From Cephalotus follicularis (taxonomy: Eukaryota; Streptophyta; Magnoliopsida; Oxalidales; Cephalotaceae), in assembly GCA_001972305.1 (NCBI GenBank), contig BDDD01001589.1:152424-216423 (forward strand): 64,000 bases of DNA, read 5' to 3'. The translations under genes and the position numbers were made by a program. Below, piece after piece: positions 6,782 through 62,211 of the stretch; positions within the stretch are counted from its first letter, which is position 1, and every line of letters starts with the position of its first letter. The notes beneath the pieces were generated by a model, which was not told where the DNA came from, made no database searches, and worked only from the letters and a program-made list of their open reading frames with translations.

Positions 6782-6782
6782 A

Positions 6783-15962: not shown

Positions 15963-16069
15963 TATGCCCTTCCTGGTCCTTCTTCTCTGGCACTGGCAGA
16001 GGAGGAGGAGCAGAGTTGAAAGCAGGAGCTCGGACAGTACTTCAAGGATGGGCCCCTCCTAGATTGACC

Positions 16070-20855: not shown

Positions 20856-20890
20856 ATATCCCCCCCTTTTCAGAATTTTGTCCCCAAAAT

Positions 20891-23617: not shown

Positions 23618-23871
23618 GGAGGCTACTCTTGGGCCGAAGTTTGCAAGATTTGTGGATTAAAGGAACAATTTAATTGGCTTAGCAAGTGTAAATCGGCCAA
23701 GAAGAATGCAAAAAGGAGTTTTGGGCTTTAGTCCATATTTAAACACACTTAATCTAACTTAACTAATGGCCCAAATGAACAAATACCATTTGACTTAAAT
23801 TTTTTTTTTTTTTACACATAAGGATGCTTACACCATAGATTATACACCAATTAGGGACATGGGGTATTACA
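23568..23871 (-). repeat. Del element 5' LTR, truncated to 304 bp
   Basis: It corresponds to 20550-20855 of the 3' LTR with three substitutions and a shorter poly(T). The inner end joins RT coding sequence at about 23567/23568 without an obvious long microhomology. The R and U5 regions and the primer site are gone. Confidence 0.9.
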
Positions 23872-29325: not shown

Positions 29326-29330
29326 TCTTC

Positions 29331-30065: not shown

Positions 30066-30077
30066 ATCTTCAACAGG

Positions 30078-31812: not shown

Positions 31813-32495
31813 CTCCGCCAGATACCCCTTTGGCTTCTCGGCTCCTTAGAGCCTTTTCTCCACCTCCCCAAGCCTTCTGTTCATCGCTTGCTCCACGTCT
31901 TCAATGTTCCTAGCTCTACTAGAAACAAGCGACCCCCCCACCTAAAGCGGTCGTGTGGTCATGCCTGCTCACCTGCTCCGCTCCGGCTCTGCGCGAAGCT
32001 TTGGAGCGCACTCGTGCCTCCTGCGCACCCCTGGCCTCCCCTTGGGGATCCACTTCCATTGGCTGCGATTCAGGACGCGCTCTTCTGGGATCGTTGGGTT
32101 GATCCTAGGCAGTTGAAGACTCTGCCCTCTGAGATACATTGATCTCAGGTCTCCTCCCCAGGGGAAGATTATCCCCTGACCGCCTAGGGGGAAGTTCGTC
32201 TCCCCTTAGCGGGTTTCACCTGGCACCTCGGGGGTGCCCAATCTCCACCACTGGCCTGTTAGGACAAGAAACTCCTCGGACCGCTGACAGAGCAAGTCCG
32301 GCCTGTTGCCAAAGTGGTGACCAGTAAATCGGTGAGGTGTTCCACCCCTTGGATCAGTCGGTTGAACTGCGCCCCCGTAACGGGAGCTTGCTCGGCATTC
32401 GTGGCAACTTGGCTAGTTTGGGCTGGGTCGTTCCCAGCCGCATGTTGGCTTCCACCTGCTGTGGAGTGGTTGTTAACGTTCTTCCTCGGAGGCAT
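31813..32495 (-). pseudogene. Tat gag N-terminal region
   Basis: The first Met at 32493-32495 begins MPPRKNVNNHSTAGGSQ, matching the MPPRRHNNKS start of the sister element (60308). Downstream, ARNIEDVEQAMNRRLGEVEKRL gives a short coiled coil before the gag core. Stops and at least one frameshift break this part, including TAA near 31848. It is low complexity, with Gln/Ala/Ser-rich sequence. Confidence 0.7.
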
Positions 32496-32509
32496 GATTC
32501 TAAATGACT

Positions 32510-32673
32510 TTTTGCTGCGCTTCCCACAGACGGCGCCAACTGTTGATGCAGAAATCTTTCCTTCAACAGTATCCCATGTGTAAGGGCTTGATTTTGCTGC
32601 GCTTCCCACAGACGGCACCAACTGTTGATGCAGAAATCTTTCCTTCAACAGTATCCCATGTGTAAGGGCTTGA
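32510..32673 (-). repeat. 82-bp direct duplication spanning the LTR end and primer-binding site
   Basis: TTTTGCTGCGCTTCCCACAG plus the adjacent primer site and the last 52 bp of the LTR occur twice in tandem (TGTTGATGCAG at 32541 and 32623, 82 bp apart). On the minus strand each copy ends with an LTR tail followed by a primer site. The copy next to the full LTR reads TGGTGCCGTCTGTGGGAA, the distal copy TGGCGCCGTCTGTGGGAA. The distal copy keeps the canonical TGGCGCC. Confidence 0.92.
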
Positions 32674-36655: not shown

Positions 36656-36907
36656 TGTTAGATATAGTGACCCGACAAGTCATTAGATGGGTTGTCAAAT
36701 TATATTTTATCTTGTATGAAACAATCTTATTCCTTATATATATGATGTGTGCTAATTTTGTTATGGCTACATCACTTGTGTTTTATCACTTAATTGAAAT
36801 AGTTTATTATTTACCTGCTTACACTTGTGATGCCCTGACATAAGGTTGGATGCCTAGCATGGAGGCTGTGAGATTGGTTACCTTATTCCTTATGTCGAAT
36901 TAGTTCC

Positions 36908-36952
36908 AAGTCATAGGTTCACTTTATGGGCTTCAGTGAACCGGATAGACTT
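36908..36952 (+). promoter_or_regulatory. U5 hairpin 1 of copia element A (AAGTC-GGTTCACT / AGTGAACC-GACTT)
   Basis: The outer arms AAGTC/GACTT and inner arms GGTTCACT/AGTGAACC are perfectly complementary, separated by small internal loops (ATA / GGATA). The same fold with GGTTCA/TGAACC occurs in copia element B at 47746-47793, with a different apical loop. Confidence 0.6.
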
Positions 36953-37069
36953 ACGCGTATGTTGCCTGCTCATGGAATTGGAGGATGGATTCTCTCACTA
37001 CCATCTGTGTTGGACACTAGGACAAATACGGGGTGCGCGCTGGGAGTGTGTACACTGAACAGGACCCGC

Positions 37070-37122
37070 GTAGGAGATACTATTTGGATAGTCGCTATTC
37101 TCGTGTCAGTAGTGACTCCTAC
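37070..37122 (+). promoter_or_regulatory. U5 hairpin 2 of copia element A (7 bp, A-A mismatch, 6 bp)
   Basis: GTAGGAG (37070-37076) pairs with CTCCTAC (37116-37122). A77 and A115 form a mismatch, and TACTAT (37078-37083) pairs with GTAGTG (37109-37114). The loop begins TTGGATAGTC. Copia element B has the same architecture with different bases at 47913-47961, and its loop also begins TGGATAGTC. The 3' LTR copy at 45135-45187 keeps pairing through a G-U. Confidence 0.7.
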
Positions 37123-37948
37123 TTGTTGCGGTTGTGTATAAGTGATGATCACTTAGCGAGTTCTCAAACTTGTCTAATCCTTAGACCTGAGCGACTGCTC
37201 TATATTGTATGGAGACGGTTATGCTTTGATCTCCACCTTACCCAGTCCTTGCGCATGACTGGCAATCGGGTGGTCTTTGGGTATGATCGAATCTATACGA
37301 ATATAAGTGAGTGCGCAATATGGGATTGTCACACCTGAGCGAAGGTGATCGGCTATATTATGATATGATTATACTTTGGACTTATGAAATCCTTGGCCAA
37401 GGTTGAGGTAGACTGGAAATTAGATTTCCGGAGAGTTTACCAAAGGTCCTAGTAATGATCAGATATTTTAGTCATTGAGGTATTATCTAGGGTTGACACA
37501 TATCCTTACCCTATACCTCAATCGGGGCTAAGGATGACAAGGGATTATAGTACACATGAACCGACGACTTAGAAAATCCAAGGTTTATGAGGTGTGTAAT
37601 AAATTATGGAAAAATTAATTAGATTAATTTTTCTATCTGGATAATATTTGGATATTATTCCAATAGCATTTAAATTGGTCAAAGACCATTTAGAATGGCT
37701 AAACCGGACCCTAGGCGTATTTTGGTAATTTATGAACACCTCTTGTTTTAACCAAGATTTTAAAAGGTCCCTGCCTTATAATGATTAGTTCTTTGATATG
37801 TTGGACATATTAAGTCCTGGTGTCAAATATTGGTTATATGATTTTGCATTTTGTGGAAACACATATGTTTGATCTTACTTAACCAATATTCGAAGGGTAC
37901 AGGAGATCACTAAAAGAGTTAGACTCTTATTGCTTCATTGGCCAGACA

Positions 37949-38087
37949 AAGCGTTGACGTCTTTTAGAAAGACGTCGATGCTTAACATTTTTAAAGACGT
38001 CGATGTCTTTTAGAAAGCGTCGATGTTTTTAGTGCCACATTGCATGAGCGTCGATGTCCTTTGGAAAGCGTCGACGTCTTTGAGCAG
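37949..38087 (+). repeat. Cluster of GCGTCGACGTC / GACGTCGATG motifs in LTR A
   Basis: Six related motifs follow in close succession: GCGTTGACGTCTTTT, AGACGTCGATGCTT, GACGTCGATGTCTTTT, GCGTCGATGTTTTT, GCGTCGATGTCC and GCGTCGACGTCTTT. They are separated by short A/T spacers that are themselves partly complementary (TTTTAGAAA). The same array is at 46014-46152 in the other LTR. Confidence 0.75.
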
Positions 38088-38831
38088 AACGTGCAACCTG
38101 TGCACGAGCTCACTTCGTGGACACGTTTTCTCTCCCATCTCCAGTAGCCATCTCCCATTCTTGCATGTTATGGGAACGTGGGGATCATGGCCACAGACTC
38201 CCTAGGAGTGAGGACCATGATCCTAAGTGAATGGGAGAGTGGGAGAGAGAAGAAGAGGGCTAGTAATAAGCATTTTCTGCAGAAAATCCAAAAGTAAGAG
38301 AAGTTTGGTTTTTTGCTGGACAAGTGACTTCGGATTCTTCTCTGCAGTGTGTGTTCCCTCCATCTGTGATACACCAAGCAAGAGCTTATCTAGGGTGGAT
38401 TGATTATTAACTTCATTGGTCAATATCAATTTACCTTTTCTAAGCTTAGTGAGAGAGAGAGAGTTCATACACTTTGTTCTTTGTTATTGCTGGTTGGATT
38501 GCTTGTTGTTCCAGCGACTTGGAGAAGATTAAAGAGGGAATCTAATCAAGCGTGTAGCGGCAAAGAAAGAAGGAGCCTTCACCCGCTGGTATATCTCTTG
38601 GTCCTTCTCTTCTTGCTATGCTTGTGTGTCACCAATGTTTACTATGGTGACACCTATTCAATTCTGTTGATGATGTGGTGATCCATGTGGTCTGTGGACA
38701 TGCCTTATGGACTGTTTTTTATTTTAATTGGGTGTTCTTCCGCTGCCATGTTTGTATGTTTTGTTTTGTTCTACACCCTATTTGCCTTTGTCCATCTTAG
38801 GCTCCGGATTTGGTTCATCCGATTCTATCAG

Positions 38832-38843
38832 TGGTATCAGAGC
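38832..38843 (+). promoter_or_regulatory. Primer-binding site of copia element A
   Basis: TGGTATCAGAGC lies two bases inside the 5' LTR end. It is complementary to the 3' end of plant initiator methionine tRNA and primes minus-strand synthesis. Confidence 0.95.
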
Positions 38844-39372: not shown

Positions 39373-40145
39373 AAAAAAACTGTTTTTAATAAAATTGGAT
39401 TTTATACATTCTGGCACTTAGAAAATCAAAAATCATTGCTTGATTTAGTGGGAGTTTGATCGGTTAACAATCCATGAATTAAATTGTTTAATTGATTATT
39501 ATTTATGGCATTTGTTTTATTTGTGTTTTATTATATTGGATATTATATAAGTCTTATGCACAATGGATGGCCCGAAGAAGGACATAGACCTAGTTTGTGG
39601 TTTTCTTGTGTGCATGGATTTATTTATTTATTTATTACTTTAAAGGTCTGTAATAAGGTGCCTGCGTGTACCATTTATTTTTCCTTTCTTTTGTAATTTT
39701 TCCTTGTATTTTTAAATGTAATTTTTTCTTTTGAAAATGTAAAGTTCTTTATATGAATGAAGACCTTACAAGGAGAGATGGAGGAAAGGAGAAATGGAGT
39801 ACAAGACTTTTGAAGGCCATGTATGTATGGTTATTTGTTGTAATAAATAAATTTATATCTTTACACCTAGGAAGACCTAGTAATGACTTTGGGCTCAAGT
39901 CATTGCTTATTATGTCCTTGCCAATCCATTAACATATTTTAGAAATATGTCCAAGGTGCATAAGATACCCGTCTTGCATGATAAGCCGTAATTAATTGGA
40001 ATTGGCTAATACAACCAATGAATTAATTAATGGCTCGGTAATTAAAACATGAGACCGCAAATTCCCTCACTTTAATAATAAGTCTTAACGTAGGAACCCA
40101 TGGAGTGGTTCCCCATGGCCTTCCATAATTTTCTTTGAGTAGTGT

Positions 40146-40194
40146 TCCTGGGTTATTGGTTTGTCATGCCCTAACTGAGGCTGACGACTTGGGA
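40146..40194 (+). promoter_or_regulatory. Leader hairpin A1 with conserved loop
   Basis: The 14-base arms TCCTGGGTTATTGG and CTGACGACTTGGGA pair at 13 of 14 positions, counting six G-U pairs. The loop at 40160-40180 is TTTGTCATGCC-CTAAC-TGAGG. Confidence 0.6.
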
Positions 40195-40238
40195 ATATTA
40201 TGTCAACGTCGGTGTTGGGAACCGCAAAGGGTGGCTAT

Positions 40239-40278
40239 GTTTTAGCACTTGGACACGCCTACGTGTGGGTGTTAAAAC
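40239..40278 (+). promoter_or_regulatory. Leader hairpin, different type (GTTTTAGCAC / GTGTTAAAAC)
   Basis: The outer arms pair with one mismatch, and an inner ACAC/GTGT pair continues the stem. Copia element B has a counterpart at the corresponding place (51728-51767) with GTTTTGA/TCAAAAC and inner ACAAG/CTTGT arms. The structure is kept while its bases differ. Confidence 0.55.
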
Positions 40279-40319
40279 TAGTGCATTCCAATGAAAATTA
40301 TGGGTACATGACTTATCAA

Positions 40320-40363
40320 GATTCTGATGGTTTGTCATGCCCTAGCTGAGGCCATATTGAATC
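40320..40363 (+). promoter_or_regulatory. Leader hairpin A2 with conserved loop
   Basis: GATTC/GAATC and ATGG/CCAT arms are separated by a small internal loop. The apical loop at 40331-40351 is TTTGTCATGCC-CTAGC-TGAGG. Confidence 0.6.
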
Positions 40364-40429
40364 TAAGGCCGAATACTATGATTGGATCTTGTATTGGATA
40401 CAAATTGGCAAGATAGCCTACCCATTGGA

Positions 40430-40470
40430 TATATTATAGTTTGTCGTGCCCTAGCTGAGGCTATAATATG
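40430..40470 (+). promoter_or_regulatory. Leader hairpin A3 with conserved loop
   Basis: TATATTATAG (40430-40439) pairs with CTATAATATG (40461-40470) over ten positions. The loop at 40440-40460 is TTTGTCGTGCC-CTAGC-TGAGG. Confidence 0.65.
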
Positions 40471-40653
40471 ATTGCGATGAATTCCAATCCTCACTAGGAA
40501 GTTAGACTTCTCGAGTTCCATATGGGGGTATGGAATACGATTAGAATAGTGGGAGGAACCATATGCACTAAAGACCAAGTGTTATGGTTATCATATATTA
40601 AAATTAGAATAAATACTAACTCATGCTTATATTTCCTTATCTAGGTTGCTAGA

Positions 40654-41624
40654 ATGGTTTTATCAAATACAATGTCCTGTATACTTGAGACAAACAAACT
40701 TGAGGGGCCCAACTTCAACGATTGGCATCGCAACCTCAAGATCGTCCTTACGACCAATAAAATGGCCTATGTGATTACTGGGGGGCCTCCTTCACTGGGT
40801 GAAGATCCGACGCCCGAAGAGAGTGAGCGACTAGCCAAGTGGCTAGAGGATGACGAGCAGGCTAGATGTCTTGCCTTCTCGGGATGACACCTGAGCTTCA
40901 GCGTCAGAATGAAAAGATTGAGACCTTATCTGCTATACTACTCCACCTTCAAGAGATGTATGGAGCTGAGTCTAGGACTCAAAGGTTTAATCTATCTCGC
41001 AAACTCTTTAAGGCTCAGATGCAAGAGGGAGCTTCAGTCCATGAGCATGGATTGAAGATGATAGACATGATTGAGCAGCTGGCTCAATTAGGGTTTGTCA
41101 TGGACCATGATCTATATGTAGATCTTCTTTTGACCTCCCTTCCTAAGTCGTTCTCACAGTTTTTGGTGAACTTTCACATGAACAAGATAGAGGTAACTAT
41201 ATCTGAGCTGGTTGCTATGTTGAGGACGGCTGAGGCCGATTTTGACTCTGGGAATTCAAAGACCCACTCCTTACTTCTTCCTTCTTCTAGGTCTGCCCAA
41301 GGAAAGGGCAGTGCCTCGTCTTCTTGTAAAGGGAAGGGCCTGCTCATGCTTGTCAATACAAAAGGCAAGGGTAAGAAGAAGCAAAAGAAGAAGAAAGGGA
41401 AGCTTGGAGCTAGTGGAAATGTTGCCAAAGATCGAATGAAGAAGTTAGCTGCTGAAGGTGCTTGTTTCCAGTGCGGTAAGACCGGGCACTGGAAAAAGGA
41501 TTGTCGTATTGCTGTTGCTGCTGTCTCTGCTGATAACCCGCATGGTGCGAGTACATCAGGTATGTTCATGATTGAACTTAATCTAGCTTTGAATAGTAGT
41601 TCTTCATGGGTATTAGATTCTTGA
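40654..41624 (+). pseudogene. Copia element A gag and start of protease
   Basis: Gag forms the virus-like particle. The start MVLSNTMSCILETNKLEGPNFNDWHRNLKIVL is the typical copia gag opening (UBN2/gag pre-domain). The frame shifts at about 40870-40880 and continues with MTPELQRQNEKIETL, HLQEMYGAESRTQRFNLSRKLF and HGLKMIDMIEQLAQLGFVMDHDLYVDLLLTSLP. A Lys-rich linker (KGKGKKKQKKKKGK) and a perfect CCHC knuckle CFQCGKTGHWKKDC (41462-41503) follow. The frame stops at TGA 41622-41624 inside the protease active-site triplet: VLDS is followed by a stop instead of Gly. Confidence 0.9.
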
Positions 41625-42671
41625 TGTGGAACTAACCTTTGCAATTCATTGCAGGGACTAAGAAAAGTTAGAAAGCTTGGAGCTGGAGACTTGGACTTGA
41701 GGCTTGGCGATGGATCTAGGATCATTGCTCAAGCTGTTGGTGTTTATGATTTTAGTTTGTGTAATAATTTTATTTTGACATTGGATCCTTGTTATTATGT
41801 TATGAATATTGTTCGGAACATCGTGAATGTTTCTCACTTATGTAGTTTGGGATTGGAGCTTAGGTTCCAAGACATTGGATGTCTTATATATTCAAACAAT
41901 GTTTATGTTGGTAATGGTGTTATCGACAATGGATTATATGTCTTAAATACTTCACAATCAAATATCTTGTCCATTGAGCAAAGTAATAATAAGAAAAGAC
42001 AAAGAGAAACTGAGCTGAATAAAACCTATACTTGGCATTGTAGACTTGGTCATCTTAGTGATGCTAGGCTATCACAGTTGATTAAGGATGATTTCCTTGA
42101 TATCCAGGACTTAGAGTCCTATCCAACTTGTGAATCCTGTTTATTAGGAAAGATGACCAAATCACCCTTCTCTGGTCAAGGAGAAAGGGCTATGGACTTA
42201 CTAGGTCTAGTCCATACTGACGTATGTGGTCCTATGTCAGTCAGTGCGCGAGGTGGTTATATCTACTTCATAACCTTTACCGATGATTTATCTAGGTATG
42301 GTTATGTGTATCTGATGAAACACAAGTCAGAATCCTTTGAGAAATTTAAGGAGTTCAGATTTGAAGTAGAAAAACAAACAGGTAAATCGATTAAAATACT
42401 TCGGTCGGATCGAGGTGGAGAATACCTGTCAGCTGAATTCCTAGGTTATCTTAGAGATGACGGAATTCTATCTCAGTGGACTCCTTCTGGAACACCACAG
42501 CATAATGGTGTGTCCGAAAGGAGGAATCGAACTCTGTTAGACATGGTCCGATCGATGATGTCTTTTACTGATCGTCCCACCTATCTCTGGGGTTATGCCC
42601 TAGATACAGCTGCTTATATCTTGAATCAAATTCCTTCAAAATCTGTGCCTTCTACTCCATACCAGGTATAG
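41625..42671 (+). pseudogene. Copia element A protease remainder and integrase
   Basis: This is the same frame as gag after the TGA. CGTNLCNSLQGL is the rest of the protease, followed by the GAG-pre-integrase region (LGHLSDARLSQLIKDDFL, CESCLLGKMTKSPF) and the rve core: VHTDVCGPMSV, TDDLSRYGYVYL, RSDRGGEYLSAEF and PQHNGVSERRNRTLLDM. The D,D,E residues are intact. It ends at TAG 42669-42671 after STPYQV. In the family the next residue is Trp, so this stop falls on the same Trp codon that is broken in the Sirevirus at 591. Confidence 0.92.
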
Positions 42672-44726
42672 TCAGGGAGGAAACCCAGCCTGAACCATTT
42701 GAAGGTTTGGGGCTGTCCTGCTTATGTCAAGAGGCTTCACGCAGATAAGCTAGAAGCGTGGTCGGACCATTGCAGGTTTGTGGGGTATCCTAAAGAAACA
42801 AAAGGATACTACTTCTATCACTCTAGCGAACAAAAGATATTTGTTTCGCGAAATGCTGTGTTCCTAGAGAAGGAATACCTTCTTGAAGGAAACAGTGGGA
42901 GTAAGGTGGAACTCAAGAAGTTGCCACAGGTAGAAACCACACAGGAAATGGAGGAGTTGGAGGTTAGACCTTCAACAGACACAGTTGAGATTGGATCTCA
43001 GGCTGAGAATAGTTCTCAGTTAGGCAGAGCTCCTTTGAGGAGATCAGGTAGAATCCCATTAGCACCTGAGAGGTATGGATTCCTCATTGATGGTACTGAT
43101 GAGATAAACGTCATTGAAGATGACGAGCCTGCCAGCTATTTAGAGGCAGTGCAAGGCACTGAATCTGAAGCATGGCTAGAAGCCATGAAATCTGAAATGG
43201 ATTCCATGTACTCCAACCAAGTATGGAATTTGGTTGAAGCACCCGAAGGCATAGTGCCTATTGGCTATAAATGGATCTTCAAGAAGAAGATGAATGCAGA
43301 TGAAAAAATCGAGACTTATAAAGCCCGATTAGTTGCGAAAGGGTATAGGCAACGACATGGAGTCGACTATAGTAAGACTTTCTCACCTGTCACCATGCTT
43401 AAATCCATTAGGATTTTGCTTGCTATTGCCGCTCATTATGATTATGAGATATGGCAAATGGATGTCAAGACGACATTCTTAAATGGGCGTCTTGAAGAGG
43501 ATATTTATATGTCACAACCCGAGGGGTTTACATCTTCCGAGCACCCGCACATGGTGTGCAAGCTCGATCGGTCCATCTATGGACTAAAGCAAGCATCTCG
43601 TATCTGGAATCTACGTTTTGATGAAGCAGTCAAAGCTTTTGACTTCGTTAAAAATATAGATGAGCCCTGTGTTTGTCGAAAGCAAGAGGGACCTAGTATC
43701 ACTTTCTTAGTGCTATATGTAGATGACATTCTACTCATTGGGAATGATGTAGGGATGTTGCAGTCTGCAAAGATATGGCTAACTAAGAATTTTTCCATGA
43801 AAGATTTGGGAGAAGCCACCTATATACTGGGTATTAGGATCTTCAGGGATGGATCCAATAGGTTGCTTGGGCTTTCCCAAAGCCAGTACATCAGCAAGGT
43901 GCTGAAAAGGTTTAAAATGGAGAATTCCAAGAGAGGCCTATTGCCAATAGGCGAAGGAATTCATCTTTCTCGAAAGATGTCTCCTCAGACATCTGAAGAG
44001 AGAGCACACATGAGTCAGATACCTTATGCTTCGGCAGTAGGGTCGATCATGTATGCCATGTTATATACTAGGCCTGATGTCGCACTTGCCCTGGGTATGG
44101 CAAGTCATTTTCAGTCTGATCCTGGTGAGAAGCACTGGGAAGTGGTCAAGGGAATCCTGAAGTACCTTAGGAGGACTCAGGATATGTTCTTGATCTATGG
44201 AAAAGATAGTGAGCTGAAATTGGAGGGCTTAACAGACTCCAGTTTTGATAGTGATCCGGATGATCACAAATCTGTCTCTGGGTACGTTTTTGTACTTAAT
44301 GGTGGAGCTGTGAGCTGGCGCAGTTCAAAGCAAGGGACTATTGCAGATTCTACCACAGAAGTCGAGTACATAGCAGCCTCAGATGCCGCCAAGGAGGGTG
44401 TATGGATGCGCAAGTTCATTACTAAACTAGGAGTTATTCCATCCATTATTAGTCCAGTTGTGATATATTGTGATAATAATGGGGCTGTAGCACAAGCCAA
44501 GGAACCGCGGTTTCACCAGCGATCCAAACACATCGAGCGGTGCTATCATTTGATCCGTGAGATTATTGGTAGGGGAGATATACAGCTTGAGAGGGTATCC
44601 TCAGAGGAGAACACAGCAGATCCGCTGACCAAGGCAATTGGCACCAAGGCTCTGGAGCATCATCGTGGGGCGATGGGTCTAGGCTATAGGAGTTCATGGC
44701 TTGAGGGTCAAGTGGGAGACTGTTAG
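42672..44726 (+). pseudogene. Copia element A integrase tail, reverse transcriptase and RNase H
   Basis: This is the same frame after TAG. Motifs are LKVWGCPAYVKRL (integrase tail), [32 protein letters not shown] (most copies have KTAFLNG), YGLKQASRIWNLRFDEAV and the catalytic LYVDDILLIGND. RNase H shows GLTDSSFDSDPDDHKSVSGYVF, TTEVEYIAASDAAKEGVW and YCDNNGAVAQ. It ends SSWLEGQVGDC at 44726, so the stop codon overlaps the LTR start. The polypurine tract AAGTGGGAGA (44710-44719) lies within the last codons. The segment is fully open and RT residues are intact. Confidence 0.94.
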
Positions 44727-46895
44727 ATATAGTGACCCGACAAGCCATTAGATGGGTTGTAAAATTATATCTTATCTTGTATGAAACAATCTTATTCCTT
44801 ATATATATGATGTGTGCTAATTTTGTTATGGCTATATCACTTGTGTTTTATCACTTAATTGAAGTAGTTTATTATTTACCTGCTTACACTTGTGATGCCC
44901 TGACATAAGGTTTGATGCTTAGCATGGAGGCTGTGAGATTGGTTACCTTATTCCTTATGTCGAATTAGTTCCAAGTCATAGGTTCACTTTGTGGGCATCA
45001 GTGAACCGGATAGACTTGCGCGCATGTTGCCTGCTCATAGAATTGGAGGATGGATTCTCTCACTACCATCTGTGTTGGACACTAGGGCAAATACGGGATG
45101 CGCGCTGGGAGTGTGTACACTGAACAGGACCCGCGTAGGAGATACTATTTGGATAGTCGCTATTCTCGTGTCAGTAGTGACTCTTACTTGTTGCAGTTGT
45201 GTATAAGTGATGAGCACTTAGCGAGTTCTCAAACTCGTCTGATCCTTAGATCTGAGCGACTGCTCTATATTGTATGGAGACGGTTATGCTTTGATCTCCT
45301 CCTTACCCAGTCCTTGTGCATTGCTGGCAATCGGGTGGTCTTTGGGTATGATCGAATCTATACGAATATAAGTGAGTGCGCAATATGGGATTGTCACACC
45401 TGAGCGAAGGTGATCGGCTCTATTATGATCTGATTATACTTTGGACTTATGAAATCCTTGGCCAAGGTTGAGGTAGACTGGAAATTAGATTTCCGGAGAG
45501 TTTACCAAAGGTCCTAGTAATGATCAGATATTTTAGTCATTGAGGTATTGGCTAGGGTTGACACATATCCTTACCCTATACCTCAATCGGGGTCAAGCAT
45601 GACAAGGGATTATAGTACACGTGAACCGACGACTTAGAAAATCCAAGGTTTATGAGGTGTGTAATAAATTATGGGAAAATTAATTAGATTAATTTTTCCA
45701 TCTGGATAATATTTGGATATTATTCCAATAGCATTTAAATTGGTCAAGGACCATTTAGAATGGCTAAACCGGACCCTAGGGGTATTTTGGTAATTTATGA
45801 ACACCTCTTGTTTTAACCAAGATTTTAAAGGGTCCCTGTCTTATAATGATTAGTTCTTTGATATGTTGGACATATTAAGTCTTGGCGTCAAATATCGGTT
45901 ATGTGGATTTTGCATTTTGTGGAAACACATATGTTGATCTTCCTTAACCAATATTTGAGGGGTACAGGAGATCACTAAAAGAGTTAGACTCTTATTACTT
46001 CATTGGCCAGACAAAGCGTCGACGTCTTTTAGAAAGACGTCGATGCTTAACCTTTTTAAAGACGTCGATGTATTTTAGAAAGCGTCGATGTTTTTAGTGC
46101 CACATTGCATGAGCGTCGATGTCCTTTGGAAGGCGTCGACGTCTTTGAGCAGGACGTGCAACCTGTGGACGAGCTCACTTCATAGACACGTTTTCTCTCT
46201 CATCTCCAGTAGCCATATCCCATTCTTGCATGTTATGGGAACATGGGGATCATGGCCACAGACTCCCTAGGAGTGAGGACCATGATCCTAAGTGAATGGG
46301 AGAGTGGGAGAGAGAAGAAGAGGGCTAGTAATAAGCATTTTCTGCAGAAAATCCAAAAGTAAGAGAAGTTTGGTTTTTTGCTGGGCAAGTGACTTCGGAT
46401 TCTTCTCTGTAGTGTGTGTTCCCAACATCTGTGATACACCAAGCAAAAGCTTATCTAGGGTGGAATGATTAGTGACTTCATTGGTCAATATCAATTTACC
46501 TTTTCTAAGCTTAGTGAGAGAGAGAGAGTTCATACACTTTGTTCTTTGTTATTGCTGGTTGGATTGTTTGTTGTTCCAGCGACTTGGAGAAGATTAAAGA
46601 GGGAATCTACTCAAGCGTGTAGCGGTAAAGAAAGAAGGAGCCTTCACCAGCTGGTATATCTCTTGGTCTTTCTCTTCTTGCTATGCTTGTGTGTCACCAT
46701 TGTTTGCTATGGTGACACCAATTCAATTCTGTTGATGATGTGGTGATCTATGTGGTCTGTGGACATGCCTTATGGACTGTTTTTTATTTTAATTGGGTGT
46801 TCTTCCGCTGCCATGTTTGTATGTTTTGTTTTGTTCTACACCCTATTTGCCTTTGTCCATCTTAGGCTCCGGATTCGGTTCATCCGATTATATCA
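44721..46895 (+). repeat. Copia element A 3' LTR
   Basis: This 2175-bp LTR begins TGTTAGATATAG directly after the polypurine tract and ends TATCA before the right target duplication TGATG (46896-46900). It differs from the 5' LTR by scattered transitions. Hairpin counterparts and the motif cluster (46014-46152) are present. Confidence 0.95.
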
Positions 46896-47406
46896 TGATG
46901 TACTTCTTAGCTTGGCTTAAGAGTTCAGACAGGTCTTTCGGAGTCTTCTTAGACAAGGAGAGAGTAAACATAGAATCTCTCAAGCCATTGATGATTACAG
47001 TATTGGCTATGAAGTTGTCGAGCTCTCTGACTTGTAGAGCTTCTGTATTAAAACGGTTAAGGTATCCTCTAAGAATGTCATCTCTCTTTTGCATCACATT
47101 TATCAATATAGCAGAGGTCTTCCATTATTTCTGACTACTGATGAAGTTTTCCACAAAAGACAAACTTAACTCTGAAAAGGAATTGATGGACATTAGAGGA
47201 ACACTTGCATACCATGATCGTTCTACCCCCTCATAGTAGTTAGAAATGCTTTACAGATAATTACGTTTGGTAATTAATTGATGAAGCATAGTCATTCCGT
47301 AAGTCTTTAAGTGATTCAGAGGGTTAGTCATCCCATCATACTTGTCCATGATGGGTAGCTTGAAGTCCTTTAGAAAAGATACTTATAAGATCCCCTCTGT
47401 GAATGG
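46896..47406 (-). pseudogene. Old Tat remnant, part 2: gag core
   Basis: Read on the minus strand, this is a retrotransposon gag domain: LPIMDKYDGMTNPL near 47360, RDDILRGYLNRFNTEALQVREL (about 47090-47025), TVIINGLRDSMFTLSL and KTPKDLSELLSQAKKYI. It aligns with the gag of the Tat elements at 15429 and 59752 but is more divergent. It is bounded on the left by copia element A and on the right by copia element B, whose target duplication AATGG occupies 47402-47406. Stops are present near 47140 and 47230. Confidence 0.82.
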
Positions 47407-47745
47407 TGTTAGATTAGGGTGTCCCTCCATGCCACGAGAGGTGACTGTTTGCATATATATATGTGAGACACTCCTTGGTTGGATGTGTCCATGCAAACTG
47501 AGAGATGACTGCATGTATATATATTACACTCTTAAATCTCATTCTTAATTCCGATTATGTTTTAATGTGCATATTCCAGTAATAATGGCATTTGCTATAT
47601 GTATTATCCCTACCATAACTATGGAATCAGCTTGATTAACAAATCAACTGAATACACACATAGCGCCTTGTTGTTCGAGGGGTTGGATCTCGTGCCTGAG
47701 AGGTTATGCGAATGAGATCCTTACTCTATTCTGACAAAACGTTGC

Positions 47746-47793
47746 AAGTCATAGGTTCACTTTCTTAGGGCAATTGATGAACCGGATAGACTT
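47746..47793 (+). promoter_or_regulatory. U5 hairpin 1 of copia element B
   Basis: AAGTC/GACTT outer arms and GGTTCA/TGAACC inner arms, corresponding to 36908-36952 in element A. Confidence 0.58.
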
Positions 47794-47912
47794 ATAGTAT
47801 TATGCTTGCTCCCGGGTGTTAGTGGAGGATGGATTCTCTCATTGCCATTTGGGTTTACCCTAAAACTGATGCGGAGTGCATGCTGGGAAGCATGTCACTG
47901 AACCGACCTACC

Positions 47913-47961
47913 ATAGGAAACCTATCTGGATAGTCAATACCTTTGTCGATAGGATTCCTAT
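47913..47961 (+). promoter_or_regulatory. U5 hairpin 2 of copia element B (7 bp, A-A mismatch, 6 bp)
   Basis: ATAGGAA (47913-47919) pairs with TTCCTAT (47955-47961). A47920 and A47954 are mismatched, and CCTATC (47921-47926) pairs with GATAGG (47948-47953). The architecture matches 37070-37122 in element A, but almost every base pair is different. The loop starts TGGATAGTC as in element A. Confidence 0.7.
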
Positions 47962-48839
47962 AGTCTCAGTAGTGTATAGTCGATGGAGACTAGTTGGACA
48001 TATGTGACCTGCGTTGTGTCCCTAGACCTGAGTGGCTGGCATGCATTGTGTAGTAACCGCTCGGCTTTGATTTTTGCCTTTCCCAGTTCTAGCCAGGAGC
48101 TGGAAAAAGGATTGTCTTTGGGCGTTGTGGTAACTGCATTGAGATGTATGGGCGAGTGCGCAACAAGAGATCGTCACACCCGTATTGAGGGTGACAAGTT
48201 CTATAGTATCTGTGACTGTTGCAGACTTAAATCCTGACCAGGTGTAGGCAGACTAAAATCGGGGTTTCCAGGGAGGTCTGTCGATAGTCTCAGTGCGTTC
48301 ATAGATTTATATTTATCACGGTTTTTCCTAGGGTTGACATTTATCCAAATCATAGTCCGTGGTCGGATCCAAGGATGACGAAGGATACGTGACACGTAAA
48401 CCGATGATAGGATAAAGAACTGGTTAACCGACTAACGATTGATAGACGTGGAACTTCGGTCCATGGATCCGGGGGATGATTGGATATCATACAGGGGCTA
48501 TTTTGATAGGTAGGGACTATTAGGATGGTCGTATCAGAATTTTGGGATGTTCTAGAAAATTTATCATTATACCGGGAACCAACCGAGCTTTTGGGTCCCA
48601 CCTGATTTTGGAATAGGTTGATGTGTGTGGGACATATGTCATTTAGTAAGAGATTAGCATCTGGGTGATGTTACTTTGCTAGCGAGCATTTTATTTGCTG
48701 AACATATATCACTTCTTTAGAAGTGAGTTCAAGCATCACTATAATAGAATGTTCCATGCAAAGGGTTGTTTGTTTAACATATGAATACATTGGGTATTTA
48801 TTTGTTGAGAGAGCTTAAGGTCTAGTGGATTAATCGATG

Positions 48840-49090
48840 TCAGACCTCAAATGATAGAGGTCAGACCACAAAGTTAGACCTCAGACCACAAAGTCAGACC
48901 TCATACCACAGTGGCAGAGGAACGACCTTGAAGTCAGATATCGAAGCTCGAAGGCAGAGCTCATAGGTAGAGGTCATAGTTTAGAGCTCGAAGGCAGAGC
49001 TCAGAGATAGAGATCACAACTCAGAGCTTGAAGTCAGACATCGGAGTTCGGAGGCAGAACTCAGGTGTAGAGGTCAGAGCTAAGAGGTGG
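48840..49090. repeat. Purine-rich degenerate repeats in LTR B
   Basis: Repeated GTCAGACCTC, AGAGGTCAGA and GCAGAGCTC phrases spaced about 15-30 bp apart form alternating GAGGTC/GACCTC and GAGCTC inverted pairs. The counterpart in the 3' LTR is at about 57090-57370, with different copy arrangement. Confidence 0.75.
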
Positions 49091-50049
49091 TCTGAAATTG
49101 GGCTTAAGGAATGCCAAATTTCGGCCCAGCCATATATGACCCAAACATTAAAACATGTGCTAAGGCAAATGTTCGGCCATCAAGTGGATAAGAAGAGAGA
49201 ATTGATAAAGTAAAAGTCTTGTCTTATTTAAGACAGGATAGGAGATATTCTGAAAAGGGTAACTTAACTTGCACACTTATCACTCTCTCCAATAATCCGC
49301 TTCTTTACCAGTGAGCTCTCTCTCTTCTTCTCTTCTCTTCTTTATGTCGTCTCTTAGTCTTCCATTGGAGGACATGGCTAGAGCTTGGAGCTCTTGAAGA
49401 GTAGAGAACAAAACAACCTTCTCTCACCCTCCATCATCACTTTAGGTGGAGATAGACTGTTTCTTGCAATTTTTCTTTACATATTGTGAAGATTAGTTTA
49501 GGATTTAAACACAAACCTTCTCCATATTCAAAGTGGCTTCACGTTACCTTCAAGCCGTGCCTTGTGGAATACATTTTGTGAAGATAGAAGTTGGGATTCA
49601 AAGTGTAGAGGGAGCACATCAAGGAAGGAGTAGAAGACTTTTGGTAAGTGCTTTTTAAACCTCCTTCTTTCTCCTTTTGCTTATGGGTTAATCGAACCCT
49701 AATGTTTCCAAGAGGGAATCGTTGGATACCCTAAGGGTTTGCCTGCTCACGAGTTGGAGGTGATGGTTTAGGGTTTTGGTCCTTCACTATTTCTTTGGTT
49801 GGCCGAAGCTAGGGTTAGTGAAACCCTAGCTCCACTCGTGTGCTCATTGCTTGATATTTTTGTAGGTCCGATTGAATGTTACATTAGTGATCCTTAGCCT
49901 ATTGGTACAATTATGGACTTTTTATTCTAGTACGTCCCATTTCTTGGGGACATATTGGGTTAAAATTGTTTTGTTTGTAACCCTAAACCCTAAGTCCATA
50001 AATGTACCTCTTCCGCATAGAGCCTGGCTTACTCAATCTTTTCAATAAG

Positions 50050-50061
50050 TGGTATCAGAGC
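50050..50061 (+). promoter_or_regulatory. Primer-binding site of copia element B
   Basis: TGGTATCAGAGC, identical to that of element A, two bases inside the LTR end; initiator tRNA-Met type. Confidence 0.94.
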
Positions 50062-51727
50062 CCCTAATTAGCTTCAATTGGACCTCAATTTGATGTCTAT
50101 AGGCTTGCTTTAATGCCCTATTGTCTTGGCCGAAAAATTTGTGACTCCAACCCTAGAGTGAAATTGGCAATTTTAGGACAATTGGAATGTGGTAATTCTA
50201 GTTGTTTTTGTCAATTGTTTGAACTTGTGTAAATGACTAATTATATGGATTGTTTGCTAATCCAAAGATTAATACATTAGTTGTTGATGATGCAAGGGGC
50301 ATTCTAACATCTTTGTGTACGATTTAGGATTTCAAACGGATCTTAAAAAGTCATTAAATGGACGTTTAAAGTGTTAGGAATTTCTGCTGGAAAACTGGTT
50401 ACATGCAGAAGTTTCTGCATAGATTTTTTGCACTGGTGAGTGTAGATTATATGAAAGTTACCTAAAGCAGAAAAGTTGACTGGTTAGTGACAGTCTGAGT
50501 GCAACAATTTTCGCACAGTTTCTGGCAGTTCCTGCTAAGATTCTGGCAGTTTCTGCGCACTTACTGACAGTTTCCAGCACAATTACTGCAAGTTTCCTGT
50601 AAGCTTCTTGTAAGTTTTTCAATGTAGTTTCTGTGCAATTTTTGCACAATTACTGGTAGGAATACTGTATGGATTGGACAGGTTCGTACCATGATGTTCG
50701 GACAGAGATTCAATTTACTTATGTACATAGTTCATTTAAATTATACAATTTATTCAAGAGGAATGTTAATATTAGTTCCAACTAATATTTTAATTGCATT
50801 ATTTTTCACTCTATTAAATTAAATGGTGGGACCATGAAATTAAATATAGTGAGAGACTATATTAAGGGACACTAGATTTTATTTTATCTAGTGGGAGTTG
50901 CTATTTATTTAAGCTGATAAAAATATCGACAAACCATTAAATATTAAATTATCACTTGTTTATTCATTAAATATATAGTGAGTATATTTTTTGAATTTCT
51001 TGTGCATGGTGATAGGCTTGGGACTAGACCTAGTTTTTTGGTTTCTATCGTGGATGTTATTTAAATTCTTTATTACCATGGTGATCATCTGCTTTGTAAT
51101 AAGGCTGCCTGCGCACGCCATTTATTTTTCTTATCCATTATTTGTTAGAGTAGAAATTCTCTTCTCCCTTAAAATTGTATTCTTATTCTTTTATAATACA
51201 AGTGATGTAATTTTAAGAAGAGATACAATCAAGTTTGAAGAGAGGATTAAGAAGAATACAAGACCAAGTGAAGACCATGTATGCATGGTGAGTATGCTAT
51301 AATAAAGTAGTTATTAAATAATATCACCTAGGAGACCGAGCGGTTACGTTTGACTCACGTGATCACGATAATAGTTAAAGTCTCAAGTCAGACCATTTTT
51401 TTAGAATGTATAAGATGGATGAATTTTCAATTTTTCCAAACAGGTCCAAGCATGATAAGCCGTCTCAAATAGGATTTGAAGATAAAATGGCATTTTATTA
51501 AACGGCTTGGTAATTTAAAAAACTAAAATTTGATGAGACCAAATTCCTCCAATTGTGAAATAATAAGTCCATAAGCAATGGGGCACTAGGGTGTCCTGTC
51601 GTTGGCCTTCTACGACCTTTGTTGAATGGTGTGGACATATTGAGGATAGCACTACCGTCGTAAAGGTCCTCCGTATGACCATTTGTATTCAATTTCAGTG
51701 TGTGGTGCATTGGAAGGAAATAACCAT

Positions 51728-51767
51728 GTTTTGACACTCAGACAAGAGCACTTGTGAGGATCAAAAC
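51728..51767 (+). promoter_or_regulatory. Leader hairpin of element B (GTTTTGA / TCAAAAC)
   Basis: Seven-base outer arms and ACAAG/CTTGT inner arms. It is the counterpart of 40239-40278 in element A, with compensating differences. Confidence 0.55.
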
Positions 51768-51811
51768 AGGTTCATTTCTTTGAGGACTATGGGTTCAGAC
51801 TTATACCAGGA

Positions 51812-51849
51812 TCTTATGGTTTGTCATGCCATCAGTTGAGACTATAAGG
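51812..51849 (+). promoter_or_regulatory. Leader hairpin B1 with conserved loop
   Basis: TCTTATGG (51812-51819) pairs with CTATAAGG (51842-51849). The loop is TTTGTCATGCC-ATCAGT-TGAGA, one base longer than in element A. Confidence 0.6.
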
Positions 51850-51925
51850 GCCGGGAGGCCGAATGTTATATCGGATCTTACATTTCAAGGGCGGGGCCCT
51901 AAAGTAAATTGACATTCATGTCTAC

Positions 51926-51982
51926 CTATCTTACTATTATGGTTTGTCATGCCAACAGCCGAGGCCATGATAGGTGAGATAG
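51926..51982 (+). promoter_or_regulatory. Leader hairpin B2 with conserved loop, 17-bp stem
   Basis: CTATCTTACTATTATGG (51926-51942) pairs with the strand 51965-51982 over 17 positions, with one bulged G (51974) and two G-U pairs. The loop at 51943-51964 is TTTGTCATGCC-AACAGC-CGAGG. This is the strongest member of the family. Confidence 0.68.
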
Positions 51983-52168
51983 ATTATGATCCATACTAGG
52001 AAGCGAGGCTTCCCGAATTTCGCATGGAGGTGTGGGATACGATTAGAATAGTGAGATGAGACGTAATTACTAAAGACCATAATTATGGTAATAACAAAAT
52101 TGGAATGATCTGTTGATATTTCTCTCCGTGTTTCTTCATATAGGTTACTAGATAACATACTCAACAAA

Positions 52169-55670: not shown

Positions 55671-55712
<42 letters not shown>

Positions 55713-58328
55713 GTATGTGAGACACTCCTTGGTTGGATGTGTTCATGTAAGCCAAAAGACAGCTGCATGTAAATATATTACACTATTAAATCTATATTCT
55801 TAGTTTCAGTTATGTTTTAATGTGCATATTCTAATAACAATGGCATTTGCTATATGTATTATCGCTACCATAAATATGGAACATCTTGATTAACAAATCA
55901 ACTTAATACACATATAGCACCTTGTCGTTCGAGAGGTTGGATCTCGTGCCTGGGAGGTTATGAGAACGAGATCCTTACTCCCTTCTGACAAAACGTTCTA
56001 AGTCATAGGTTCACTTTCTTAGGGTAATTGATGAACCGGATAGGCTTGCCGTATTATGCTTGCTCCCGGGTGTTAGTGGAGGATGGATTCTCTCATTTTC
56101 ATTTGGGTTTACCCTAAATCTGATGCGGGGTGTATGCTGAGAAGCATGTCACTGAACTGACCTACCATAGAAAACCTATCTGGATAGCTAATACCTTTGT
56201 CGATAGGATTCCTATAGTCTCGGTAGTGTATAGTCAATGGAGACCAGTAGGCCATATGTGACTTGTGTTGTGTCCTTAGACCTGAGCGGCTGGCATGCAT
56301 TGTGTAGTAACCACTTGGCTTTGATTTTCGCCTTCCCCAGTTCTAGCCAGGAGCTGGCAAAATGGTAGTCTTTGGGCCTTGTGGGAGCTGCATTGAGATG
56401 TATGGGTGAGTGCACAACAAGGGATTGTAACACCCGTATTGAGGGTGACAGGCTCTATAGTATCTGTGACCGTTACAGACTTATATCTTGGCCAGGTGTA
56501 GGCAGACTAGAAACGAGGTTTCCGGGGAGGTCTGTCGATAGTCTCAGTGCGTTCATAGATTTATAGTTATCCCGATTTTTTCTAGGGTTGACATTTATCC
56601 AAACCCTAGTCCATGGTCGGAGCCAAGGATGACGAAGGATAAATGACACGCAAACCGATGATAGGATGAAGAAATAGTTAACCGTCTAACGATTGATAGA
56701 CGTGGAACTTTGGTCCACGGATCTAGGGGATGATTGGATATCATACCGGGGCTATTTTGATAGTCAGGAACTATTAGGATGGTCGTACCAGAACTTTGGG
56801 ATGTTCTGGAAAATTTATCATTGTGCCGGGAACCAATCGGGCTTTCGAATCCCACATGATTTTTGAACAGGTTGATGTGTATGGGACACATGTCATTTAG
56901 TGAGAGATTAGCATATGAGAGATGTTACTTTTCCAGTGAGCATTTTATTTGCTGAACATATATCACTTCTTTATAAGAGAGTTCAAGGATCACCATAATA
57001 GAATGTTTCATGCAAAGGGTTGTTTGTTTAACATGTGAATACATTGGGTTTTTATTTGTTGAGAGAGCTTAAATGCTGGTGGATTAATTGATGTCAGACC
57101 TCAAATGGCAGAGGTCAGACCACAAAATCAGACCTTAGACCACAGAGGCAGAGGACATACCACAAAGTCAGATCTTAGACCACAGAGGCAGAGGACAGAC
57201 CTCGAAGTCAGATATCAGAGTTTGAAGGCAGAGCTCAGAGGTAGAGGTCAGAGCTTAGAGCACGAAGGCATAGCTCAAAGGTAGATATTAGAGTTCAGAG
57301 CTTAAAGTCAGACATCGGGGCTTGGAGGCAGACCTCAGATGTAGAGGTAAGAGCTCAGAGGTGGTCTGAAATTGGGCTTAAGGAATGCCATATTTCCAAT
57401 TTCGGCCAGCCATATATGGCCCAAACATTAAAACATTTGTGAAGGCAAATGGCCGGCCATAAAGTGGATAGGAAGAGAGAATTGATAAAGTAAAAGTCTT
57501 GTCTTATTTAAGACAGGATAGGAGATATTTTGAAAAGGATAACTTAACCTGCACACTTATCACTCTTTTCAATAATCCGCTTCTTCACCAGTGAGCTCTC
57601 TCTTTTCTTCTCTTCTTTATGCCGTCACTTAGTCTTCCATTCTAGGACATGGCTAGAGCTTGGAGCTCTTGAAGAGTAGAGAACAAAACAACCTTCTCTC
57701 ACCCTCCATCATCACTTTAGGTTGAGATAGATTGTTTCTTGCAATTTATCTTTACATATTGGGAAGATTAGTTTAGGATTTAAACACAAACCTTCTCCAT
57801 CTTCAATGTGGCTTCACATTACCTTCAAGTTGTGCCTTGTGGAATACTTTTTTTGAAGATAGAAGTTGGGATTGAAAGTTTAGAGGGAGCACATCAAGGA
57901 AGGAGTAGAAGACTTTTGGTAAGTGCTTTTTAAACCGTCTTCTTTCTCCTTTTGGTTATGGGTTAGCCGAACCCTAATGGTTCCAAGAGGGAATCATTGG
58001 ATACCCTAAGGGTTTGCCTGGTCATGGGTTGGAGGTGATGGTTTAGGGTTTTGGTGTGCAAACCCTTCACTATTTCTTTGGTTGGCCGAAGCTAGTGTTA
58101 GTGAAACCCTAGCTCCACCCGTGTTCTCGTTGCTTGATATTTTTGTAGGTTCGATTGAATGTTACATTGTGATCCTTGGCCTATTGGTACAATTATGGCT
58201 TTGTATTCTAGTACGTCCCATTGCTTGGGGAAATATTGGGTTAATTTTTTTTTGTTTGTAACCCTAAACCCTAAGTCCATGAATGTACCTCTTCCGCGTA
58301 GAGCATGGATTACTCTATGTTTTCAACA
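55627..58328 (+). repeat. Copia element B 3' LTR
   Basis: It starts TGTTAGATTAGGGTG and ends TTCAACA before AATGG (58329-58333). It contains an (AC)n(AT)n microsatellite at about 55673-55711, absent in that form from the 5' LTR, and the ATGGCCGGCCAT palindrome near 57449 also seen in the 307-bp repeat at 6016. Confidence 0.93.
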
Positions 58329-58480
58329 AATGGTGGGTTGTTCATGTCTTCAAGCTCATCAACTATACTAAGATGTTTCATCTCCTTCATGACTACTCCA
58401 AGTTTCCTGTTCATCTCGTTTATTTTTATATTGATCTCATGGTTATTAACTTTAAGGAAGTGTAAGAGGAATAAGACTTA
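58329..58480 (-). pseudogene. Old Tat remnant, part 1: gag N-terminal side
   Basis: On the minus strand, MNRKLGVVMKEMKHL and VDELEDMNNPPF (about 58425-58330) match the coiled-coil region before the gag core of the Tat elements (MNRRLGEVEKRL and NLSVHPFTTKI). The sequence runs directly into the target duplication AATGG, and its continuation is at 47406. The three pieces 58329+, 46896-47406 and 36260-36655 therefore belong to one element cut by two copia insertions. Confidence 0.68.
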
Positions 58481-59751: not shown

Positions 59752-60250
59752 TGATACGGGAAAAATCTTACCCGAAGTCAATGCCACTTGTCCTCGGGAG
59801 AACTGGACAGATGTCCTCTAGAGCCAAAAACACGTGGTCGGGCGTTATACAAAATATGGGAAGATAACGTGCCATAACCTCCAGGAGCTAAATCCGGTGG
59901 AGAATTAGGGAAATGCCCGAGATACTCGGCATTTCCTTAGGGGAACGCAAATCACCTTCGACTATCATGCAAGTCAGTTACAATAATCTCCTATAAATAC
60001 CAGAATCAAAGACATAACAGAGGTCTGCCATTCTTATACACTCAAAGCATCCTGAGATTATTTTCTCTGCCTATCACTGACTTTAGCATCGGAGTTTCCC
60101 CAGGAGAAAACCCTCCTGGACCTTCGACGAGTTTGTTCATTATGTGTAGGGAAATCAATCCAACACCCATTCTAGGAGCAATCAAGTGTTTCTCCTAACA
60201 AATCAAACCCTTCCACGTAAAGGACTGTTGAGGAGAGGATTTTTGCATCA
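59752..60250 (+). repeat. Tat element 2 5' LTR
   Basis: This 499-bp LTR starts TGATACGGG and ends GCATCA. It contains a TATA box CTATAAATAC (59991-60000) followed by a plausible initiation region. The sequence after it, GGCCGTTTGTGGGAA (60269-60283), is a decayed form of the TGGCGCCGTCTGTGGGAA primer site seen in the other Tat element. Confidence 0.88.
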
Positions 60251-60307
60251 ATAGTTTAGGCCGTTTGTGGGAAACGCTTCGAAAAGCCTTCAGACCAAGA
60301 CTGAATC

Positions 60308-62000: not shown

Positions 62001-62211
62001 TGTCATCCACACCATCTCTGGAGGGGTCGCATCTGGTGGAAACAATAAAAATTCCATAAAGGCTTATGCAAGACAAACCTTTGCTGTGCAACAGTACCAG
62101 CACAGCAAAAGGCTGAGGACCGGTGGAGATTAGGAGGTGATATCCTTCTCCGAGGTGGACTATGAGGGAGTACATCTCCCTCATGATGACCCAGTGGTAG
62201 TGACTCTTTAG

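Follow-up and report, generated by a model that had tools for sequence, protein, structure and literature searches.

Within a 64,000-nucleotide (nt) stretch of the Cephalotus follicularis genome (contig BDDD01001589.1, positions 152,424 to 216,423; hereafter the window) lie two long terminal repeat (LTR) retrotransposons of the copia type, A and B, whose leaders, with the primer-binding site (PBS) upstream and gag downstream, contain a structured domain. In a reading made from the sequence alone (the sequence-only reading) these were taken for two diverged elements, and self-comparison agrees with this: the LTRs are 96.4% (A) and 89% (B) identical within each element, while between A and B identity falls to 66-71% in LTR parts, 68-71% in pol blocks and 67% in a leader block.

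36656..38830, plus strand: 5' LTR of element A, from self-comparison (partner 3' LTR 44721-46895, identity 96.4%, 2176 columns)
38832..38843, plus strand: PBS of element A, TGGTATCAGAGC, exact match adjoining the 5' LTR
40654..44726, plus strand: gag-pol region of element A, copia type, interrupted by stops (Pfam: Retrotran_gag_2, zinc knuckle, rve, RVT_2)
47453..50053, plus strand: 5' LTR of element B, from self-comparison (partner 3' LTR 55707-58334, 89%; 3' end within a few bases)
50050..50061, plus strand: PBS of element B, TGGTATCAGAGC, exact match at the end of the 5' LTR

The PBS sequence is one that we take to be the complement of the 3' end of the plant initiator tRNA-Met. It was found in 21 of the 70 stretches examined, the window's two counted, many of the stretches ending short of the PBS. 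The gag-pol region of A contains a change of frame around 40866 and stops that end at 41624 and 42671; because of these interruptions this copy looks dead in spite of the high identity of its LTRs.

Five hairpins had been described upstream of gag, three in A (A1, A2 and A3) and two in B (B1 and B2), and all are present on the plus strand at 40146-40194, 40320-40363, 40430-40470, 51812-51849 and 51926-51982, with loops and stems as claimed. With a strict hairpin script A2 escapes detection, its stem being split in two blocks, and the other four are listed. By position in the leader the hairpins were assigned to three types, H1 (A1), H2 (A2, B1) and H3 (A3, B2). A covariance model trained on 67 hairpins of the H3 type, A3 and B2 included, recovered all five in the window, every one on the plus strand; the sole further match up to E 10 was a reverse-strand echo of B2 (E 2).

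51932-51974, plus strand: covariance-model match B2, E 3e-15
40429-40470, plus strand: covariance-model match A3, E 1.5e-11
51809-51849, plus strand: covariance-model match B1, E 1.3e-7
40327-40355, plus strand: covariance-model match A2, E 2.5e-7
40159-40181, plus strand: covariance-model match A1, E 0.0035

Folded alone, three of the five hairpins clearly beat dinucleotide shuffles (z -3.5, -2.5 and -3.7); A2 (z -0.56) and B1 (z -0.55) do no better than shuffles, and the case must therefore rest on comparison among copies. This comparison showed that the hairpins, real as they are, belong to a multi-helix RNA domain of about 490 nt between PBS and gag rather than standing as five separate units, and that B has a further H1 hairpin, missed in the first reading, which lies at the position of A1 and has a degenerate loop.

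40115..40588, plus strand: structured leader domain of element A (from the 67-leader consensus fold, projected onto A)
40134..40207, plus strand: H1 of A (A1), long stem, apical module UUUGUCAUGCC..UGAGG
40228..40292, plus strand: long hairpin of A without the loop motif, aligned with 51714-51781 of B (consensus-fold helix table)
40320..40362, plus strand: H2 of A (A2) (fold, covariation, covariance model)
40422..40480, plus strand: H3 of A (A3) (fold, shuffles, covariance model)
40497-40511, 40512-40539 and 40558-40588, plus strand: three short hairpins of A round the conserved ATACGATTAGAATAGTG block (conservation, helix table)
51602..52089, plus strand: structured leader domain of element B (top conservation in 42 aligned leaders; consensus fold, helix table)
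51621..51693, plus strand: H1 of B, degenerate apical loop (the motif is nearly complete in A and in three further copies)
51714..51781, plus strand: long hairpin of B, GUUUUGA..UCAAAAC, 28 base pairs, motif-free (helix table)
51809..51852, plus strand: H2 of B (B1) (fold, covariation, covariance model)
51926..51982, plus strand: H3 of B (B2) (fold, shuffles, covariance model)
51991..52089, plus strand: 3' part of the domain of B, a helix (51991-51998/52049-52057) enclosing two hairpins, then a hairpin at 52060-52089

The consensus fold of 67 sequences comprises 169 pairs at -204 kcal/mol, with a mean identity of 75% over the 68 aligned. In B numbering, a first closing helix surrounds H1, a small hairpin, the long hairpin 51714-51781, a hairpin at 51784-51807 and H2; a second closing helix encloses two small hairpins and H3; a third unit contains two hairpins, and a final hairpin stands ahead of a region resembling a splice site. 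Element A follows the same plan at only 62% identity to B over the domain. In 42 aligned copies, 51617-52096 is the best conserved part of the approximately 1.9 kb examined, conservation per 60-column row being 0.78-0.92 in the domain against 0.54-0.73 at the start of gag and 0.46-0.73 in the leader farther upstream. The preceding approximately 510 nt (51027-51537 in B and its counterpart in A) likewise give a good alignment fold (energy -119 vs -41 for the null, 32 of 42 copies kept) but no excess of G-U over A-C changes (37:23), and some weaker structure may be present there too. A conserved near-palindrome lies there, CCATGTATGCATGG at 51276-51289 in B and CCATGTATGTATGG at 39818-39831 in A, which is also a possible splice donor (CAT/GTATGC).

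The domain belongs to a high-copy copia family of the C. follicularis genome. The loop motif with six variable bases (N6) occurs 704 times in the 1.58-Gb assembly, against 0 for the reversed pattern, and that with five (N5) 6176 times against 6, while the ATACGATTAGAATAGTG block 3' of H3 is found within two mismatches at 12453 places (control 631); the motif search at 2 mismatches was uninformative (6783 matches vs 7858 for the reversed control). Among 97 gag homologues, the best 58 are from C. follicularis wherever the organism was readable (two names were not), with identities of 47-93%; weaker homologues include sequences of Hibiscus, Striga and Rosa, among others. In viral contigs 34 matches to the loop were taken as chance because none had a stem of 5 or more pairs, and no relative of the reverse transcriptase was found there.

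The sample consisted of 70 loci with the N6 motif (L035-L104) plus A and B; two repeats (L053, L064) were dropped, leaving 70 elements, and the domain aligns in 68 of these, A and B counted, the anchor being absent in L042 and L054. Removal of one near-identical row left 67. As the loci were picked by the H3 loop (a few by the H2 loop), selection bias affects H3 but for the most part not the remainder of the domain. In 20 copies taken by the anchor alone as a bias check, the H3 hairpin was kept in 18 on inspection, L107 and L116 being rearranged or deleted there. Compared with shuffles, its stem came within the top 5% for 14 of these 18 (L119 borderline, 10/200); L111, L114 and L121 failed, and in L110 the best stem was a different one. 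Where the loop departs from the motif, the inner helix is still paired by eye in L115 and L121, and none is clear in L119.

Evidence for selection at the RNA level was obtained by comparing branches of the tree. A Watson-Crick pair hit by one transition becomes either G-U, which RNA tolerates, or A-C, which it does not, and similar counts are expected under neutrality or DNA-level constraint; internal branches mostly reflect the evolution of active elements and terminal branches largely decay after insertion. In the stems of 67 copies, G-U:A-C changes were 140:29 on the internal branches, compared with 318:276 on the terminal ones, the internal ratio of a refolded null averaging 1.5 with a maximum of 2.6 (40 runs). 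Since the fold was derived from the same data, the 68 sequences were halved by clade, one half being folded and the other scored. The internal counts of 74:19 and 60:19 sum to 134:38 (terminal 330:273; Fisher p 2e-8), against means of 45:33 over both halves for slid controls. Treated in the same way, gag gave 13:12 and 7:9, or 20:21 (vs the domain p 0.0004; 39 of 42 rows kept), and the upstream leader 21:16 and 16:9, or 37:25 (p 0.007; 32 of 42 rows kept); internal ratios without cross-validation were 32:20 for gag, 37:23 upstream and 12:5 farther upstream, where the null ratio is 4.2. The structure carries over to the held-out clades, with 86-87% of cells paired vs 40-42% in slid controls; the corresponding values are 61 and 49% vs 39 and 35% for gag, and likewise high, 83-84% vs 41-46%, for the upstream leader. 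Summed over the three motif hairpins the internal count is 54:8, and for the long hairpin (51714-51781 in B, 40228-40292 in A) it is 29:1 over the aligned copies. The excess of G-U on internal and hardly on terminal branches, which survives cross-validation, indicates that strand-specific selection on RNA pairing acts on the stems of the domain.

Covariation was assessed in this small sample with an own R-scape-like all-pairs G-test and two tree-based nulls. In restricted mode 5 of the 169 pairs were significant, against 0-1 for slid controls. The top-scoring pair of the all-pairs mode (E 2.2) lies in the structure, as do 6 of the top 60 (0.08 expected). Taken by itself, H2 shows good covariation (66 of the 67 hairpins extracted; in L044, excluded, the H2 place does not hold the hairpin), with double changes at three pairs: A-U 27/U-A 26, U-A 51/C-G 8 and G-C 51/A-U 10.

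The feature shared by the hairpins is an apical module of 21-22 nt, composed of an internal loop UUUG/GR, an inner helix in which UCA, a bulged U and GC pair with GY UGA (UCA-U-GC/GY-UGA), and a pentaloop, in most cases with C as its first base. The loop had been described as constant; the module does recur, but across the family the inner helix takes alternative forms and the pentaloop varies. In H3 the full 11-mer is present in 61 of 68 hairpins, partly owing to the way the sample was selected. H2 has the bulged form in 38 of 68 and a GGCAYARC form in 16, five of which (L041, L046, L050, L057, L062) show a longer, bulge-free CACAGC/GCUGUG helix, a pattern that L070 matches by overlap only. 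H1 fits GC-N4/5-RY-UGAGG in 23 of 68 and has UCAUGCY in four (L045, L048, L104 and A).

Within an element the pentaloops tend to agree. Based on unique combinations, agreement between H2 and H3 is 0.615 vs 0.489 for shuffled data (27 combinations; 0/5000 shuffles as high), between H1 and H3 0.718 vs 0.529 (1/5000) and between H1 and H2 0.621 vs 0.490 (2/5000), the parser having missed or misread some loops, so that 40, 19 and 20 of the 68 elements were usable. Such agreement is as expected if one element-specific partner reads H1, H2 and H3. No pairing partner of the pentaloop was detected in the element's own stretch (up to 4.9 kb; 37 elements), complementary 6-mers occurring at 2.45 per kb in own vs 2.42 in other stretches and 7-mers at 0.39 vs 0.34.

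Between the domain and gag there is, by prediction, a strong sequence resembling a 3' splice site.

40644..40645, plus strand: predicted 3' splice site of A, ..CTAAC..TTTCCTTATCTAG/GTTGCTAG, directly ahead of the gag ATG at 40654
52143..52144, plus strand: predicted 3' splice site of B, ..TTTCTTCATATAG/GTTACTAG, ahead of the gag ATG at 52169

In the 42 aligned copies the AG is kept in 40 and a branch-like YTRAY in 34, and the fraction of pyrimidines before the AG is 0.89 vs 0.40 farther upstream; in most copies GTTGCTAG or a close variant comes after the AG, and the first ATG comes at a median of 29 nt onward. The final conserved hairpin ends 54 (B) or 56 (A) nt upstream of the predicted site, and the domain about 65 (A) or 79 (B) nt before the gag AUG. 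As 58 (A) and 49 (B) AUGs lie between the PBS and gag, plain scanning of the unspliced RNA is unlikely, and splicing would be a natural way to make a gag mRNA. If the predicted site is used, the spliced mRNA would lose the domain and the full-length genomic RNA would keep it, a position that favours a role confined to genomic RNA over one in translation of the spliced mRNA.

Based on this arrangement we tentatively propose, as a possibility still short of probable, that the domain is a genomic-RNA recognition signal, for packaging and perhaps dimerisation, carried by the leaders of a large copia family. Splicing at the predicted 3' site would remove it from the mRNA, and its retention would mark the unspliced genomic RNA for the element's own Gag. 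H1, H2 and H3 may serve as repeated docking sites, the variable outer stem of each presenting the internal loop UUUG/GR, the small inner helix and the pentaloop, and one element-specific partner could read all three pentaloops. A more speculative extension, which we consider doubtful, is that the family-specific pentaloop of the three hairpins, changing in concert, constitutes a self-recognition code read by the element's own Gag. If that were true, each copia family would package its own genomic RNA amid thousands of such leaders.

A number of results weigh against the packaging proposal or the evidence on which it is built. In all-pairs mode no individual pair reached E<=0.05, which touches the outcome that the sequence-only reading itself had set against its idea, namely no significant covariation in a larger alignment; its view that selection acts on RNA structure rather than on DNA is supported in 65 further copies plus A and B, but not by any single significant pair. 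H3 alone does not exceed shuffles on covariation score (87/500 as high; 67 of 68 extracted, L050 excluded). Double-compensatory changes (37 vs 3.2 in the refolded null) and alifold energy (-204 vs -92) are raised in the domain, and so they are in gag (16 vs 1.3; -69 vs -15) as well as in two pieces of the upstream leader (5 vs 1.6, -119 vs -41; 9 vs 0.7, -9.6 vs -3.8), so that these measures do not discriminate. One cross-validation half had 9 compensatory vs 10 non-compensatory double changes, the other 18 vs 1. In the 42 longer copies alone the cross-validation halves gave 38:5 and a weak 25:17. G-U support is lacking for two helices, the hairpin 51878-51907 at 2:4 and the first closing helix at 8:8. 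The agreement among pentaloops was corrected for phylogeny only through the use of unique combinations, which removes shared ancestry in part. As for the intron, no 5' splice site could be fixed, several GT sites scoring alike and none being both strong and well conserved outside the domain; a search for intron-less copies returned 5 matches to one candidate junction, all unrelated-looking on inspection; and plant LTR elements are described, in passages of a 2025 review, as generally lacking introns, Ogre and EVADE being among the exceptions (PMC12786077). The absence of RNA function altogether, with hairpins spread by duplication within the leader and conserved as DNA (binding sites, recent ancestry), would fit the high copy number, the non-significant all-pairs test and the raised values in gag; it also predicts balanced G-U and A-C changes, which is not what the internal (140:29) and held-out (134:38) counts show beside slid controls of 45:33, and we regard it as very improbable.

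The main rival to a packaging signal, in our judgement rather unlikely, is that the intronic domain recruits host export factors so that unspliced RNA leaves the nucleus, acting like the constitutive transport element (CTE) of Mason-Pfizer monkey virus (MPMV), the transport elements of mouse musD and intracisternal A-particle (IAP) elements or the structured leader of cauliflower mosaic virus (CaMV). The argument from the predicted 3' splice site applies equally here, the hairpins are repeated with a common module, and passages in the literature describe recruitment of TREX components by the CaMV leader (PMC12786077) and the CTE with TAP/NXF1 (PMC3856414). A conserved host partner, however, poorly explains pentaloops that differ between elements and agree within them, and there was no Rfam match, although which export elements Rfam holds was not checked. 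Translational control or internal entry, by which the structured leader would bring ribosomes to gag past the dozens of upstream AUGs, draws on the number of these AUGs and on the distance from the domain to the gag AUG; yet use of the predicted splice site would strip the domain from the spliced mRNA, and splicing alone would dispose of the intronic AUGs, making this explanation quite unlikely to our mind. Improbable, too, is a splicing regulator whose structures tune the adjacent 3' splice site, and thereby how much genomic RNA is made relative to gag RNA, without any reader of the loops in trans: the last conserved hairpin does end 54 (B) or 56 (A) nt from the predicted site, but such a regulator would explain neither the agreement of the loops nor why hairpins at distances of roughly 160-520 nt have an apical module in common.

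Other repeats in the window include a third copia-type open reading frame (ORF) with RVT_2 at 594-2597, whose leader falls outside the window, and a compact minus-strand element of the Ty3/gypsy type with a chromodomain at 20550-23871, which has one ORF of 921 amino acids lying between repeats of about 305 bp that are 98% identical. Another repeat is present in two copies, inverted with respect to each other, at 28766-32594 and 60200-64000 (74% identical), the latter holding an RVT_1 match in the ORF 62212-63303. Self-comparison also showed tandem arrays at 16050-16656, 19417-19774 and 6016-6783, with offsets of about 68, 61 and 307 bases, respectively.

Rfam gave 0 matches at gathering threshold in the window, and permissive scans of both domains returned only mir-1684 (E 0.7, minus strand), far below the gathering score; a ribozyme reading was dropped, as there was no match to any known family. 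Searches of open-licence papers on copia or plant LTR leader structure brought up no description of the domain, and among the papers listed for the letters of the loop one deals with the Drosophila non-LTR retrotransposon Helena and the rest, by title, with different subjects. The export of plant LTR element RNA has not been studied directly, according to a passage of the 2025 review (PMC12786077). Little seems to be known of how plant LTR retrotransposons discriminate their genomic RNA from that of relatives and from mRNA, and a domain of about 490 nt with named helices, a repeated module and a splice-site-like neighbour makes this question specifically testable. Moreover, setting internal against terminal branches offers a simple screen of other high-copy transposons for functional RNA structures.

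The mode of action proposed here for the domain is that of retroviral packaging leaders. Among them, the stem-loops with GACG tetraloops of gamma- and alpharetroviruses are described as involved in packaging (PMC516450). As in the retroviral packaging signal psi, the leader from PBS to gag contains several stem-loops, some with a common loop motif, and splicing would remove them provided that the predicted intron exists; unlike psi, the domain belongs to a plant copia element and, where psi has a fixed tetraloop, carries a module of 21-22 nt in which the pentaloop is variable and an inner helix is present. The leader of CaMV forms a single long hairpin and has a translational shunt, unlike the multi-branch domain with repeated modules beside a predicted 3' splice site. 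Shared with CaMV are the plant reverse-transcribing origin and a structured leader, that of the virus being given in the 2025 review as about 482-608 nt and as recruiting export factors (PMC12786077). The MPMV CTE, the musD transport element and the IAP RNA transport element resemble the domain in being cis-acting and structured and in belonging to unspliced or full-length RNA (PMC3856414, PMC12786077); they are animal elements, for which the passages concerned name no similar sequence, and the domain has no Rfam match. For BARE, a copia element of barley, separate RNA pools for translation and replication are reported, and it is said, in parts of the same paper, to carry dimerisation and packaging signals (PMC3735527). 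The splice of BARE lies inside gag and removes 104 nt (PMC3735527), unlike the one predicted here ahead of gag, while the likeness consists in a plant copia element and, in BARE, in distinct classes of RNA.

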